Source: a virus. From it: DNA of 37,901 bases. The number at the start of each line of letters is the position of its first letter. Within the stretch, counting starts at the first letter, position 1. The translations under genes were made by a program, and so were the position numbers. Shown here in pieces: positions 24,519-30,698 of the stretch. Location of the stretch: IMG/VR virus record IMGVR_UViG_3300044625_000798, positions 1-37,901 of that record; one strand, written 5' to 3'. The notes beneath the pieces are model-generated. The model saw nothing but the letters and a program-made list of their open reading frames with translations. It had not been told where the DNA came from and did not search any database.

Positions 24519-25381
24519 GACGGCGTTCCGAAGGTCGAGGTCAGGTTGCCTGCAGGGCATACCCGACGATTGAGGATCGCCGGCGCGCCGCCGGTCTGGC
24601 CGCCGGAGCCGTCGAGCCCGACCGGATTCGGCGACGCGATCCACTCCGAGTTCTCGAAGTCAAACACCATCGCCCGCCGCTTTTGGCCGCCACTGATGAA
24701 GTTGTACCCAACGTCAGGTAACTGGAGGTTGTGGCCGCTCTGACGGTAGAGCAGCGTCGCCTCGGAGGCCCAGTAGGTGATCATCGCACTGTTCCACTGC
24801 TCGACGGTTTGCACGACGTTCACGCCGTCGACCTTCACCGTGTGCGTCGGCAGTCCATACCAGCTGCTGCTGTTGACAAAGTTCTGCGAGCCGACCCACC
24901 CGGTGGGGAACGCTGCAAAATTTTGCCGCACCTTGAAGGCGATCATGCTCTCGGGTGCCGTCAGACCGGGAAAATAATCGTAAGCCGAGTTTGTCAGCGG
25001 ACGGAGCGTGCTGCCGTCGTAGTAATAGAGCGCCGCTACCTCGCCGGCCTTCGACTCGACGGTCCACTCGGCCGCCCTGCTCGTGGGGTGCGTGTATTCG
25101 TTGGGCCGCAGAATCGAATACGTCGCCTCGACCAGCACGTGGTAGGGCGAGCCTTCGTAGCCCTCGGCGAGCGTGAACTTGCGTAGCCGCAGGGCCGTGT
25201 GGATGGGGTGCGTCGTGCCCCACGCCAGGCCGCACGTGTCAGTCAGGATCGTGAGCTCGCTCGTCGGCGACGACAGCGTGTCGTCGCTCAGCACGGCCAC
25301 CCAGCGGCGCACGGCGACGGCGGGCGAGCCGATCTCTTCTTCGAACGTCCGCGGCAGTTCCCGGATAGATGAGATGCTCAT
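24515..25381 (-). CDS. Minor tail protein
   Basis: A 288-residue protein coupled to the tape measure gene by an ATGA overlap, the usual place of distal tail or tail-tip proteins. It has an N-terminal helix-strand segment (SIRELPRTFEEEIGSPAVAV), a strand-rich body and aromatic patches (VAALYYYDGSTLRPL). HVLVEATYSILRPNEYTHP and AMVFDFENSEWIASPNPVGL suggest a beta-sandwich hub. Position and composition support a structural role. No family is named with confidence. Confidence 0.65.
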   Translation of the reverse strand: MSISSIRELPRTFEEEIGSPAVAVRRWVAVLSDDTLSSPTSELTILTDTCGLAWGTTHPIHTALRLRKFTLAEGYEGSPYHVLVEATYSILRPNEYTHPTSRAAEWTVESKAGEVAALYYYDGSTLRPLTNSAYDYFPGLTAPESMIAFKVRQNFAAFPTGWVGSQNFVNSSSWYGLPTHTVKVDGVNVVQTVEQWNSAMITYWASEATLLYRQSGHNLQLPDVGYNFISGGQKRRAMVFDFENSEWIASPNPVGLDGSGGQTGGAPAILNRRVCPAGNLTSTFGTPS

Positions 25382-28300
25382 GCCCTGGCTCCGAGGACGC
25401 CGATGGTCACGGGGCGGCCGATGGCACCGCCGACCGTGTTGATGATGCTCTGATTGATCTGCCGCAGGAGCTTGCTCTGCTGCCGGGCCTCGATGAGGTT
25501 CGGGTCTTGGGCGTTTGCGGCAAGGCCAATAACGAGGGCAGCGCCCTCCTGCGTGCGAACGTCGGCGGTCTGCACCGAGCGAGCACCGAGCGTGTTGAGC
25601 TCGCGGAGGCGGTTCTGCTGGCGCTCAAACTCGGCCTGCTGGGCCTTGGCTTGCTCCTCCAAGAACGCCTGCTGGGCCTTCTGCGCCTCTTCGTACTGCC
25701 GCTGTTGGGCCTGGGCGATCTGCTGCTGCGTCCGCTCCTGCTCCTTCGCGGCGTCATCGGCCTGCTTGGTAAATGCCTTCTGCTGCTCGTCCGCACGCTT
25801 CTGATCCTGGCCGGCGATCTGTGCTTTCTTTTTCTCTACGTCGTCGAGATGCTTGATCTCTTTGTTGAAGATCTCTTGCTGTCGGGCAACCTCGGCGTCG
25901 AACGCCTCTTTGTTCAGGATGCCGTCGCGGGCCTGCTCCTGGGCGGCGGCGATGCCTTCCTGCAGTCGCTGCGCTGCCTCGGCTCCGGCGTTGCCGAACT
26001 CCGCAGCCTTGTTGATCGTCTGCCCGACGGCACGGTCTACTTGCTCAAATGCACGAGCGAAGCCCTCGCCGAACCCCTGCTCGGCGGCCTGCTGCTGATC
26101 TTCAAGCCGTGCTTGAAGTTGGTCGAGTTGCCCGAGCCTCGCTGCGGCGGCATCCGCCTCTTGCTGATTGCCGGCGGTTCGTGCCTGCAAGAGCCTTGCC
26201 GTCTCTTGGGCCTGCTGCTCTTGTACGGCGACGATGTCCCGCTCGATCTGCGACTGCTCCTGCCCGGCCGACAGCAGTTCGTCGATCCGCTTTCGCTGGT
26301 CGTCGAGCCGCTTCCGCTCGTCCTCGGCAGCCTTGGCCGAGCCGTCCGCGATCGCCTGCTGCTCGTTACTGATGACGCCTAGTTGGCGAATCCGCTCCTC
26401 GCCGTTGGCAACCGCCTCGGCGTCGCCGCTATCCTTTGCTGCGGCGACTTCTTCTTGAATGCGTGCGATCTCTCGCTCGACAGCCAGCACTTGCTCCGCG
26501 GCTTTCGCCCTGCCAGAGTCGCCGCCGAACTCGCGGTTGATTCGGGCCTGCTCCAGAAGTTGGTCGGCGACCTGCCTGTCGGCATCAATGCGACGCTGGG
26601 CCTCCTCGGCTGCTTTGCGAGTCTCTTCCTGCACTAGCTTCAGCGACTCGATCTGCCGCTCGTACTCGGCCGTGGCGTTCGCTACGCCACGGGCGTACTG
26701 CTCGGCGTTGAGTTCGCCGCCGTTGGCCTGCTCCTGCAAGTCTTCCAAGGCCGTTTGGAATTCCAGGGCCGCGTCGAAGCCTGCCTGCCCGAACTCGCCG
26801 GCCTTGGCGATGGCGTCGTCGAGAGACTTGCCGCTGCCGGCGATAGTCTTCTGCAATTCGTCGAACGCCTTCTGCTCCTCTTTCGTCAACGACTGCACGC
26901 TGGCCGCCGTTTTGTCGACGCTCTCGGACGCCTGCTCGGCCGAGCGGTCGATACCCAGGAAGTTCTCCGCGATCGTGAGCAGCCGCCCGACGGTGCCGCC
27001 GATGGCCGAGGCGATCGTCGTGAACACGGACGCCACGGACCCGAACACGCTGTTGATGACGCTGCCGATTGCAGACAGCGGACCGCTGAGTCCGGTGAAC
27101 TCGACGAACGAAGAAACGGCAGAGCCCACGTACTTGGCCACGCTGCCGAGCGTGTTTCCGATTACCTCGCCGACCTTCCCGAATGCCGTTGTAATGATCG
27201 TCACGACACGGCTGATGGTCTCTCCGAGTGCGCCGACGTTCGCGGCAATCGCGCCGATGGGCGTGAACGACACAAGCCACTCGGCGACGGCGACCTGGGC
27301 GTTGCTGATTCCTTCAAGGAATCCGAACACGGATTCCGCCAACGGCTCAAACGCTTGCGACACGGCCTGCACGACCGTCGCAAACGGCTCAAACACCACG
27401 CCGATGATGCGGCCGAGGTTGCCGATGCCTGTGCCGATGAACTCGATCACGCGGCCGATGTTCGTCAGCACCGGCTCCAGCACCTGACCGATCGGATCAA
27501 TGATCGCCGTGAGCCCGGCTGTGACTTCGGCGAACGCGGTGGCGACGCCTTCGCCAAGACCGACGAACGGCAGCAAGAGCGATTGCCCGAGCCCTTGCGT
27601 CGCCACGCCGAGGGCGTCGAGGCCGGCACCGAACTCGTCGATGCGGCGACGGTCAATGACGGTGAGTGCCCTGCCGAAACGCTCCATGTCTCCGGCCGCG
27701 CCGCCTATGTTGCGAAAGAACGGAAGAAGGTCGGCACCAGCTCGCCCAAACAAAGCTACTGCTGTCGCGGTGCGGCGGGCAGGGTCTTCGATCTTGCTTA
27801 GAGACTCGCCGATTCGTAGGTACTGATCCTCCGGTGAAAGCGACTGCAACTCTTCCGCCGTCACGCCGATCTCGGCGAGCGCCTTTTGCGCCGCCTTACT
27901 CTCCTCATCAACGCCCAGCACCGACTTCTGGAGCCGGCCGAACGCAGCACTCACCGCGTCGATGCTCGTGCCGCTGCGAGTAGCCGCCGCTTCAAGCGTC
28001 TGGATAAACTCGAACGACACGCCGAGCTTGTCGGCGGTGTTGCCGAGCTTCTCGACGCGGTCCTCCAGGGAAGTGAGTCCCTGGACAACTGCGGTCGCCG
28101 CAGCACCGAACGCCGCCACGCCAGCGACCGCCGCCGTGAACGGATTAACGAGGCCGGCCACCGACGCCCCAATGCTCGTGAGCCCCTGTGACAGCCCTGC
28201 GGAAAACACACGAGACAGACCCTCGCCGGCACTCGATAGACCAGAGAGCCTGCCGGCCACGTTGCCTAGCGGGCCGGGAAGGGCCGAGAGGATGCCAGAC

Positions 28301-28839
28301 AGTTCGTTGAACTTAAGTGTGCCGGCGCCGCCGGCCCCTTCGGCGGCGGCCTCGTATTTGGAAGCCGCGAGCGTGGCCTTGGAGTACGTCTCTGCGGTTC
28401 GCTGGAGCGCCGCCGCGTACTGCTCCTCGGTGAGCAGGCCGGCTTCACGAAGCCGATTGAGTTCGGCGGTTGAGTTGTCGAACTCGCGTTGGGCTCTCTG
28501 CTCGCGCGTCAGGTTGGCTTCGATGATCCGCGAGGCCGTTTCAAGGTCGCCAGCCGCTTGCTCGGCTGATCGCTGAAGCTCCTCAAGTGCCCTAGCGTAT
28601 TCCTGCGGCGACGTGATTCCGGCTTTGAGGTTCTCCGTCAACGCCTGGACGCGGATGCCGAACTTGTCCTGGGCGGCGACCGCCGCTGCCGACTCGCTGC
28701 CGAACTTCTTGAAGACCGCCGTGACGCTAGCGGCCTCTTTGTCTAACTGCTGCAACGCTTTTTCGACGGGCGACAAGCTCTGCCGAACGCCCGTGGCGTC
28801 CGCAGAAATCTTCATCGCCAGTGAGAGCACGTTCGCCAT
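25378..28839 (-). CDS. Tape measure protein
   Basis: A 1153-residue protein, the longest in the window, right after the G/GT chaperones. The N-terminus (LSLAMKISADATGVRQSLSP) is typical of tape measures. Long helical and coiled-coil stretches fill residues 20-170 and about 640-1080. Between them are glycine/alanine-rich hydrophobic stretches (FTAAVAGVAAFGAAATAVV; many VGNTLGSVAKYVGSAV-like segments) that may insert in the host membrane. The C-terminal third is Q/A/E-rich. The length would predict a tail of roughly 170 nm at 1.5 angstroms per residue. There is no lysozyme or peptidase domain. Confidence 0.92.
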   Translation of the reverse strand: MANVLSLAMKISADATGVRQSLSPVEKALQQLDKEAASVTAVFKKFGSESAAAVAAQDKFGIRVQALTENLKAGITSPQEYARALEELQRSAEQAAGDLETASRIIEANLTREQRAQREFDNSTAELNRLREAGLLTEEQYAAALQRTAETYSKATLAASKYEAAAEGAGGAGTLKFNELSGILSALPGPLGNVAGRLSGLSSAGEGLSRVFSAGLSQGLTSIGASVAGLVNPFTAAVAGVAAFGAAATAVVQGLTSLEDRVEKLGNTADKLGVSFEFIQTLEAAATRSGTSIDAVSAAFGRLQKSVLGVDEESKAAQKALAEIGVTAEELQSLSPEDQYLRIGESLSKIEDPARRTATAVALFGRAGADLLPFFRNIGGAAGDMERFGRALTVIDRRRIDEFGAGLDALGVATQGLGQSLLLPFVGLGEGVATAFAEVTAGLTAIIDPIGQVLEPVLTNIGRVIEFIGTGIGNLGRIIGVVFEPFATVVQAVSQAFEPLAESVFGFLEGISNAQVAVAEWLVSFTPIGAIAANVGALGETISRVVTIITTAFGKVGEVIGNTLGSVAKYVGSAVSSFVEFTGLSGPLSAIGSVINSVFGSVASVFTTIASAIGGTVGRLLTIAENFLGIDRSAEQASESVDKTAASVQSLTKEEQKAFDELQKTIAGSGKSLDDAIAKAGEFGQAGFDAALEFQTALEDLQEQANGGELNAEQYARGVANATAEYERQIESLKLVQEETRKAAEEAQRRIDADRQVADQLLEQARINREFGGDSGRAKAAEQVLAVEREIARIQEEVAAAKDSGDAEAVANGEERIRQLGVISNEQQAIADGSAKAAEDERKRLDDQRKRIDELLSAGQEQSQIERDIVAVQEQQAQETARLLQARTAGNQQEADAAAARLGQLDQLQARLEDQQQAAEQGFGEGFARAFEQVDRAVGQTINKAAEFGNAGAEAAQRLQEGIAAAQEQARDGILNKEAFDAEVARQQEIFNKEIKHLDDVEKKKAQIAGQDQKRADEQQKAFTKQADDAAKEQERTQQQIAQAQQRQYEEAQKAQQAFLEEQAKAQQAEFERQQNRLRELNTLGARSVQTADVRTQEGAALVIGLAANAQDPNLIEARQQSKLLRQINQSIINTVGGAIGRPVTIGVLGARA

Positions 28840-29150
28840 CAGTCGAATCCAAGTTGTTTTTTCAAGTCCAAAATCACGTCTCGTGCTTGGACTGCGTGCT
28901 GCGGAGGTTTCTCGATCGGGTTGAAGTCGCTCGCCTTCGGTGTCTTGCCCTGCTCGCTATACGGTGCCAACGATGCCGAGACGATCAGGCCCGTCTCGGC
29001 CCAACTGTCAGGAAGTGCGTGGTAGTACCTCGTGAACGCCAGCCACTCGGCAAGCTCGCGCGTCGTCATCCGACGCTCGATCTCGCCGACTGTCATTCCA
29101 AGGTGCCCCGCCAGCCGGAAGACGAATCTTCGCAGCGGGCGGACGTTCAG
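28839..29150 (-). CDS. GT extension of the tail assembly chaperone (gpT-like), made by -1 frameshift
   Basis: The frame has no credible start of its own. It is entered by a -1 slip at 29150-29156 from the G gene. It adds 103 residues beginning LNVRPLRRFVFRLAGHLGMT, with MTTRELAEWLAFTRYYHALP, the pattern of gpT-type minor tail/chaperone domains. The fused product would be 223 residues. By analogy with lambda gpG/gpGT it should bind the tape measure and recruit tail tube subunits, then leave the tail. The stop overlaps the tape measure start by one base. Confidence 0.85.
   Translation of the reverse strand: MNVRPLRRFVFRLAGHLGMTVGEIERRMTTRELAEWLAFTRYYHALPDSWAETGLIVSASLAPYSEQGKTPKASDFNPIEKPPQHAVQARDVILDLKKQLGFD
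29108..29142 (-). promoter_or_regulatory. Stimulatory stem-loop of the -1 frameshift
   Basis: Starting seven bases after the slippery heptamer, the minus strand can fold CCGCC with GGCGG, a short inner helix, and GAAGA with TCTTC closed by a TTCG tetraloop. It is well placed at a ribosome's entry channel to promote slippage. Confidence 0.75.
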
Positions 29151-29509
29151 TTTTTTGCTAACTCCTCCACATCCGATTCCGACATCGCGTTGTGCTTCAT
29201 CGCCTTTTCGAACAGCGTCGAGACGACCTTCGCTGACTTGCTCGCCAGCTTCTCGACCTTCTCGTCGGTGAACAGCCGCTCGCCGGTTTCGGGGTGACAG
29301 AGGCAGCGGGCGAGGAACTTCGTGCGGAAGTTGTCGATGCCCGTCTCCCGCTTGCCGATCCACTCACGCTCGTAGGCGTCACGCTCTCCTACGGTCATCA
29401 CGCGGATGCCGAGCGTCATGTTGCCCCACTCCTTCACCGTGACCTTGAGGATGCCCAGGTCTTCCGCCGCCATGATCTGCGCCGCGAGTTCTTCAACCGT
29501 CAGTGCCAT
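29147..29509 (-). CDS. Tail assembly chaperone G
   Basis: A 120-residue protein from the ATG at 29509 (AAGGA six bases upstream). It starts MALTVEELAAQIMAAEDLGI. The body (WGNMTLGIRVMTVGERDAYE, FLARCLCHPETGERLFTDEK) is typical of gpG-like chaperones, between the tail tube gene and the tape measure. It ends GCA AAA AAC TGA, so the A AAA AAC heptamer is in the correct frame directly before the stop. Most ribosomes stop here and a minority make the GT fusion. Confidence 0.85.
   Translation of the reverse strand: MALTVEELAAQIMAAEDLGILKVTVKEWGNMTLGIRVMTVGERDAYEREWIGKRETGIDNFRTKFLARCLCHPETGERLFTDEKVEKLASKSAKVVSTLFEKAMKHNAMSESDVEELAKN
29150..29156 (-). promoter_or_regulatory. Slippery heptamer A AAA AAC
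   Basis: The canonical X XXY YYZ signal for -1 programmed frameshifting lies in the zero frame of the G gene, immediately before its TGA. Slipping leads into the open gpT-like frame. Confidence 0.85.
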
Positions 29510-29519
29510 TGTCAATCCT

Positions 29520-29855
29520 TCAGTTGGGAGCCAGTTTGAACGTCGCGGCGTACCGTGCCACGTCGTTGACCTTCCCCTCAAGACGCAGCGTCTGGCAGAT
29601 GGCCTTCGCCGTGAACGTCAAGCCGCCGCCGCTGATGTCGAGCGTGGCTTTCTTGCCGTACTGGGCCAGACTGATCTGCGCCGTCGAGAGGCACGAGATG
29701 TCTATAGCACCCATGTCCAGCGACCAGCCGGCCGGCGAGTGCGTGCCGCCGCGGTACGTCGGCAAACTGCCGCCGACGAGCACCTTGATCTCGGTGACCT
29801 CACCGAGCTCGACGGTATCCCACTTCGCCGTGACGCCCGTACATACTGTCGCCAT
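29520..29855 (-). CDS. Tail tube-like protein 2
   Basis: A 111-residue, strand-rich protein with GGAGG six bases before the ATG. EVTEIKVLVGGSLPTY, GWSLDMGAIDISCLSTAQIS and VARYAATFKLAPN have the alternating-strand look of a small tail-tube domain. It lies directly before the G/GT genes, the normal place of the major tail protein. A similar-sized protein is encoded just upstream, so one may be the tube and the other a paralogue, terminator or decoration protein. Confidence 0.6.
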   Translation of the reverse strand: MATVCTGVTAKWDTVELGEVTEIKVLVGGSLPTYRGGTHSPAGWSLDMGAIDISCLSTAQISLAQYGKKATLDISGGGLTFTAKAICQTLRLEGKVNDVARYAATFKLAPN

Positions 29856-29875: not shown

Positions 29876-30265
29876 CTACACGCGGGCGATGCGGATCGTC
29901 GCCTGCCCCCGGATCGCGTCGTTCACGGCCAGCGTCAGCGTGCTGGAGTTCACCGTGTAGGCCACGCCAGCCAGGAGCGACGTGCCGCCCGTGCTGATCG
30001 TGCAGGTTCCGGTCGCACCGTCCGCGATGATGCTCTTGCCGAGGTAGTCGAACTGGACCGAGCGGCCCGTGTCGGTCGTGCTGCCCTTCAGCGGGCGGTC
30101 AATCGTGGCGACCTGGGCACCCGTGGTGAGCCCGAGGTGCGATACGTCGATCTTCTCCTGGTCGGCGTTCGGGTCGTTGTAGGTGATGACGACGTTCGTG
30201 ATGGTGTAGTTGGTCGCGCCGAGCGCAAGCGACGTTCCGGCACCATCATGCGGCGTGGCTGACAT
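29876..30265 (-). CDS. Tail tube-like protein 1
   Basis: A 129-residue strand-rich protein: TSLALGATNYTITNVVITYN, KIDVSHLGLTTGAQVATIDR and a C-terminal TLTLAVNDAIRGQATIRIA. EKIDVSHLG followed by a GRSVQFDYLG region resembles compact major tail proteins. It sits between the DUF3168-like tail completion protein and the second tube-like protein. An AGGAG lies ten bases before the ATG. Confidence 0.65.
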   Translation of the reverse strand: MSATPHDGAGTSLALGATNYTITNVVITYNDPNADQEKIDVSHLGLTTGAQVATIDRPLKGSTTDTGRSVQFDYLGKSIIADGATGTCTISTGGTSLLAGVAYTVNSSTLTLAVNDAIRGQATIRIARV

Positions 30266-30278
30266 TTCTTCGATTCTC

Positions 30279-30698
30279 CTACGTTTCGGACCACATCACG
30301 GAATACGTCTGAGTGACGCTGTAGACTGGTGGCATTTCGCCGCCCGCCAACTGCACGAACCCGTCCGCCTCGTTGTCGAGGCTGACGTTCTTCACTACTA
30401 CCGAGTCTGTCTCAGCGGTGCCGTACCCATCCAGAACCCGACGGCACTTGTCGGCGAGGTCTCTTACTGCCTCGTAGGTCGTGGCGTAGATGTCCACCGT
30501 AAGGATCACGGTTGGCATTCCCATCGGGCCGGCGAGCGTGTGCTGCCGCTGGACGCCAGATCGCCGCCACGTCACGAACGGAAGGTCGGCGGTCGCGGGG
30601 GCGATGACCGGATAGACCCGCGTGCCGACCATCGCCGCTACGTCGGCGTCGGCGATCAAGGCGGACCGGCAGACCTGTTCGGGGCTCTTGAGCGGCAT
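30279..30698 (-). CDS. DUF3168-like tail completion protein
   Basis: A 139-residue protein. RSALIADADVAAMVGTRVYP, PFVTWRRSGVQRQHTL, VILTVDIYATTYEAVRDLAD and a C-terminal YSVTQTYSVMWSE fit the DUF3168/gp17-type tail completion family in length and strand order. Such proteins cap the tail at the head end. Its place between the HK97-gp10-like protein and the tail tube genes agrees. Confidence 0.8.
   Translation of the reverse strand: MPLKSPEQVCRSALIADADVAAMVGTRVYPVIAPATADLPFVTWRRSGVQRQHTLAGPMGMPTVILTVDIYATTYEAVRDLADKCRRVLDGYGTAETDSVVVKNVSLDNEADGFVQLAGGEMPPVYSVTQTYSVMWSET

Follow-up and report, generated by a model that had tools for sequence, protein, structure and literature searches.

The tail gene region of a 37.9-kb IMG/VR virus record raises the question of how an open reading frame that follows a G-like chaperone gene, and that leads directly into the tape-measure gene, comes to be translated. 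From the letters of the DNA, a sequence-only reading had proposed a programmed −1 frameshift at this place. We refer to the whole stretch of 37,901 nt as the window; the features concerned, all on its minus strand, are as follows.

30279..30698, minus strand: tail terminator/gp17-like gene, upstream context (PF11367, E 2e-11; phrog_347)
29147..29509, minus strand: G-like tail assembly chaperone ORF, 0 frame, 120 aa (phrog_344, E 2.7e-22)
29164..29168, minus strand: GGAGG, Shine-Dalgarno-like candidate stimulator, 7 nt upstream of the heptamer
29156-29150, minus strand: in-frame slippery heptamer (A AAA AAC), followed at once by a stop
29149-29147, minus strand: stop TGA of the G-like ORF, adjoining the heptamer
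29143..29149, minus strand: spacer TGAACGT, 7 nt, containing the 0-frame stop
29108..29142, minus strand: stem-loop of 35 nt, probable stimulator (MFE −20.7 kcal/mol; compared with codon-preserving shuffles)
28839..29150, minus strand: T-like extension, −1 frame, 103 codons (phrog_337, tail protein, E 7e-14; pN/pS 0.28 in codons 2-18)
25378..28839, minus strand: tape-measure protein, 1153 aa (matches to many PHROG tape-measure families); its start overlaps the T stop

The −1 frame reads from the CTG at 29150 and stays open over its 103 codons up to the tape-measure start, where one base of TGATG (28841-28837) is common to the T stop and the tape-measure ATG. Together with the phrog_337 match, this bears out the sequence-only reading, which had described the frame as gpT-like and open to the tape measure. 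The lambda order is tail tube, G, GT and tape measure; here the tape-measure gene comes after the T-like extension. On the other side of the G-like ORF, two small ORFs (29876-30265 and 29520-29855) gave no Pfam or PHROG match naming a tail tube; they stand in tandem at the place expected for the tail tube, and their mutual similarity is marginal. A close relative of the window was placed in a Planctomycetota bin, no more than a hint of the host.

The G-like ORF ends in GAG TTA GCA AAA AAC TGA. The in-frame A AAA AAC reported earlier at its stop is correct base for base, as is the seven-base spacer (TGAACGT, 29149-29143) ahead of the hairpin. The 19 ORFs of the window contain four in-frame heptamers of the form X XXY YYZ, and the one at 29156-29150 alone abuts a stop. 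Under the phage's own codon usage, the probability of GCA AAA AAC given the residues A-K-N is ~0.017. The G genes of relatives use GCA for 16% of their alanines and AAA for 8% of their lysines, yet all 46 distinct gene ends of the A AAA AAC type read exactly GCA AAA AAC. Since this set had been selected for GCA AAA, the weight of the result rests on the missing GCG, GCC and AAG variants, none of which turned up at the heptamer place among all the gene ends listed. The position of the stop was identical in all 71 close junctions. In the clade with G GGA AAA it lies 3 nt past the heptamer, and in Moraxella, Chloroflexi and Rooney sequences still farther away. The suggestion that the abutting stop is an efficiency control is an interpretation and, given this variation in stop distance, is not supported in the form proposed.

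Scans of viral and genome collections returned some 270 loci, many of which overlap, and 106 distinct homologous G/T pairs. A slippery heptamer of one of four kinds was found at the junction in 104 of the 106 pairs: A AAA AAC (70), G GGA AAA (21, placed one codon upstream), G GGG GAA (7) and G GGA AAC (6). Of these, G GGG GAA is a weaker form of the motif because its second codon re-pairs imperfectly. The remaining two pairs were divergent actinobacterial sequences with other end contexts, and X XXA AAG heptamers never occurred among the sequences examined. On a tree made from G and T, with the frameshift site left out, seven switches from one kind of heptamer to another are required in all. 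This exchange of the heptamer for other slippery heptamers, and not for arbitrary letters, is the strongest sign of function. Relatives that keep both frames and lack a heptamer had been named beforehand as evidence against a frameshift; the 104 slippery junctions speak to the contrary.

The replacements also bear on who slips. An RNA polymerase that added an A within the A6 run would shift the frame without any ribosomal slippage; a six-A run is indeed present, and slippage during transcription is known to be able to yield the same product. However, relatives carry GGGAAAA, GGGAAAC or GGGGGAA in place of A6, and these mostly preserve tandem tRNA re-pairing, not a long homopolymer. The conserved RNA hairpin described below likewise suits ribosomal slippage better, and we consider slippage by the polymerase highly improbable.

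Several further observations were made at and around the junction. The G/T junction of L212, GGGAAAAAAC, contains two overlapping slippery heptamers and is possibly an intermediate between two heptamer kinds. In four relatives (L004 and L005 with L107 and L108) T is 99-100% identical to that of the window, while G is 88% identical and carries a five-residue insert, a mismatch that suggests recombination near the frameshift site. In Moraxella phage Mcat30 (L274), the sequence around 1476 looks like an unannotated frameshift site. The Glu-Leu pair ahead of the heptamer (29165-29160 in the window) is nearly always encoded in the relatives as GAA CTx or GAG TTx; GAG CTx, which would make AGCT, is very rare. 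Over the whole window AGCT is somewhat depleted (78 seen, 137 expected), and GCGC strongly so (98 seen against ~339 expected from trinucleotides), which might reflect escape from host restriction.

Coding selection on both sides of the heptamer was compared as pN/pS over 69 distinct sequences, with the last 20 codons ahead of the heptamer as the G part. Before the heptamer, the 0 frame gave a pN/pS of 0.31 and the −1 frame one of 1.8. Past the stop, the −1 frame (T codons 2-18) gave 0.28 and the 0 frame 0.92. Hence, the frame under protein-level selection is the 0 frame up to the slippery site and the −1 frame beyond it. No start codon common to the relatives was found within or upstream of T codons 2-18, which are also conserved in distant homologues. 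Codons conserved in this way without a common start would be read by ribosomes arriving through G.

These values also weigh on the possibility that T is a separate protein with its own start, for example the ATG at 29096-29094, and that the heptamer is incidental. That ATG, at T codon 19, is the first widely present one (67 of the 69 relatives), and the annotation of some relatives, Moraxella phage Mcat30 among them, shows T as a gene of its own. Yet codons 2-18 lie ahead of it and are under the protein-level selection just described, the ATG is lost in L046 and L123, and where present it belongs to a conserved protein motif, LGMTV. The retention of the heptamer, or its exchange for another slippery one, also stands against independent initiation, and the Mcat30 junction itself carries A AAA AAC. 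We therefore give a separately initiated T hardly any credence and retain ribosomal frameshifting as the reading of the junction.

Downstream of the heptamer, the RNA can form a stem-loop, CCGCC...GAAGA-UUCG-UCUUC...GGCGG, that begins 6-7 nt after it, within the 5-8 nt at which stem-loops follow the heptamer in dnaX/IS911-type signals (PMC4066793). RNA folding of this segment had been proposed as a check, and the hairpin has a predicted MFE of −20.7 kcal/mol, with a z value of −3.6 when exactly 39 nt are folded. The z value was −0.5 once the hairpin was embedded in 76 nt of GC-rich surroundings, and about −2.0 (p 0.04) against codon-preserving shuffles. In this single sequence the hairpin is thus moderate evidence, and its support comes from the relatives. 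The UUCG loop pointed out earlier is present in the hairpin at 29142-29108, although most relatives lack it, and it is closed by an A-U pair, unlike the extra-stable C(UUCG)G.

For the comparison across 69 relatives, the 48 nt past the heptamer were tested against shuffles that preserve the T protein and its codon usage. The mean z of the hairpin was −2.3, with p ≤0.05 in 77% of sequences, compared with mean z values of −0.55 to +0.84 in eight control windows from the same genes. A fixed 16-pair structure was formed in 81.7% of cells, and in at most 57.7% when one side was slid. The pair at columns 28-48 was seen as AU, UG, GC and CG. The number of pairs changed on both sides was 5 versus 4.6 in shuffles and thus not above them, and relatedness inflates such counts. 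RNAalifold found no consensus structure over all 69 junctions, because helix registers differ among clades, and a weak one (−4.1 kcal/mol) on a subset; an Rfam scan of the window gave no match. One clade (L148, L149, L150, L152, L155 and L157) keeps heptamer and stop and has no such hairpin, which makes the hairpin a common, not an obligatory, part of the signal. Larger folds are predicted in this clade and are not claimed here. Four distant actinobacterial sequences (L170, L162, L167 and L161) also fold strongly at this place, as judged from the predicted fold.

Upstream, the signal may also include a GGAGG, which the sequence-only reading had overlooked (29168-29164) while correctly listing heptamer, spacer and hairpin. 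Among the distinct A AAA AAC-type ends, the codons that form it are GTG in 43 of 46 (usage 50%) and GAG in 44 of 46 (usage 69%); it is missing from a large part of the clade with G GGA AAA. Its distance of 7 nt is slightly short of the 9-14 nt known for Shine-Dalgarno-like stimulators of bacterial −1 signals such as dnaX and IS911 (PMC5009743), and we treat it as a candidate stimulator only.

Compared with known systems, the junction resembles that of lambda G/GT and its relatives in long-tailed phages. It has a G-like 0-frame gene of the chaperone family phrog_344, a T-like −1 extension without a conserved start of its own, a heptamer near the G end and a position directly ahead of the tape measure (PMC5009743, PMC10885494). 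It differs from lambda in its heptamer (A AAA AAC, not G GGA AAG), in the stop directly past the heptamer, in the downstream hairpin conserved in most relatives, and in a T-like product that matches Pfam Phage_tail_T (PF06223) only below the family cut-off. The Streptomyces phages phiSASD1 (gp35/gp35.1) and Dubu (gp13/gp14) have homologous G and T genes that are annotated as joined by a −1 shift, with ACG GGA AAC TGA at the homologous place; their G is about 35% identical, their heptamer is G GGA AAC and their hosts are different. The g-t junctions of the haloarchaeal phages HCTV-1, HCTV-2 and HCTV-5 may be counted as a further related system, in archaeal hosts. With dnaX and IS911 the site shares the order of Shine-Dalgarno, heptamer and stem-loop; it differs in its second codon (AAC, not AAG), in the shorter distance of the Shine-Dalgarno-like element, and in gene and function. 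In the literature, we found nothing relevant on frameshifting in phiSASD1 or in phages of Planctomycetota.

Based on the protein families, heptamer replacement across 106 pairs, the frame switch and the lack of a conserved alternative start, the earlier proposal of a programmed −1 shift stands. We put the probability that lambda G/GT-type ribosomal frameshifting joins the G-like chaperone to the T-like extension at roughly 0.95. What the sequences show is the elements themselves, how these are conserved or replaced, and coding selection in two frames with its switch at the site. The site is real and conserved, and it is a further case of the known tail-chaperone frameshift.

That it is the ribosome that slips, how efficiently it does so, what each stimulator contributes and that the products act as chaperones are what we infer from these features. 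A minority of ribosomes on the G-like gene would step back one base at A AAA AAC, the tRNAs on AAA and AAC slipping in tandem to the −1 frame. The stem-loop would stimulate this step, and pairing of GGAGG with 16S rRNA would perhaps also help. Slipped ribosomes would bypass the abutting stop and go on in the T frame, yielding a 223-aa G-T fusion, with the 120-aa G made in excess of it. In lambda the ratio of this kind is 30:1 and matters in tail assembly (PMC5009743); by analogy, G and G-T would act here as tail-assembly chaperones, G coating the tape measure and T recruiting tail-tube subunits. A AAA AAC is reported to be inefficient in E. coli (PMC4066793), which is compatible with a low-yield event or with a host of other tRNA properties. 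Slip sites that are poor in E. coli are kept over deep divergence in this phage lineage, which is linked to non-model bacteria, mostly with an abutting stop; it is conceivable, if rather unlikely, that the ribosomes or tRNAs of these hosts slip by other rules or that a slow termination step at the stop plays a part.

Ribosomal frameshifting at this junction would add an uncultured phage group to those with a tail-chaperone frameshift. The comparative support is unusually strong, with heptamers replaced and not lost and a hairpin kept against synonymous drift. The natural variants in the kind of heptamer, the presence or absence of the hairpin and the distance of the stop may be usable to study what determines the G:GT ratio outside E. 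coli.
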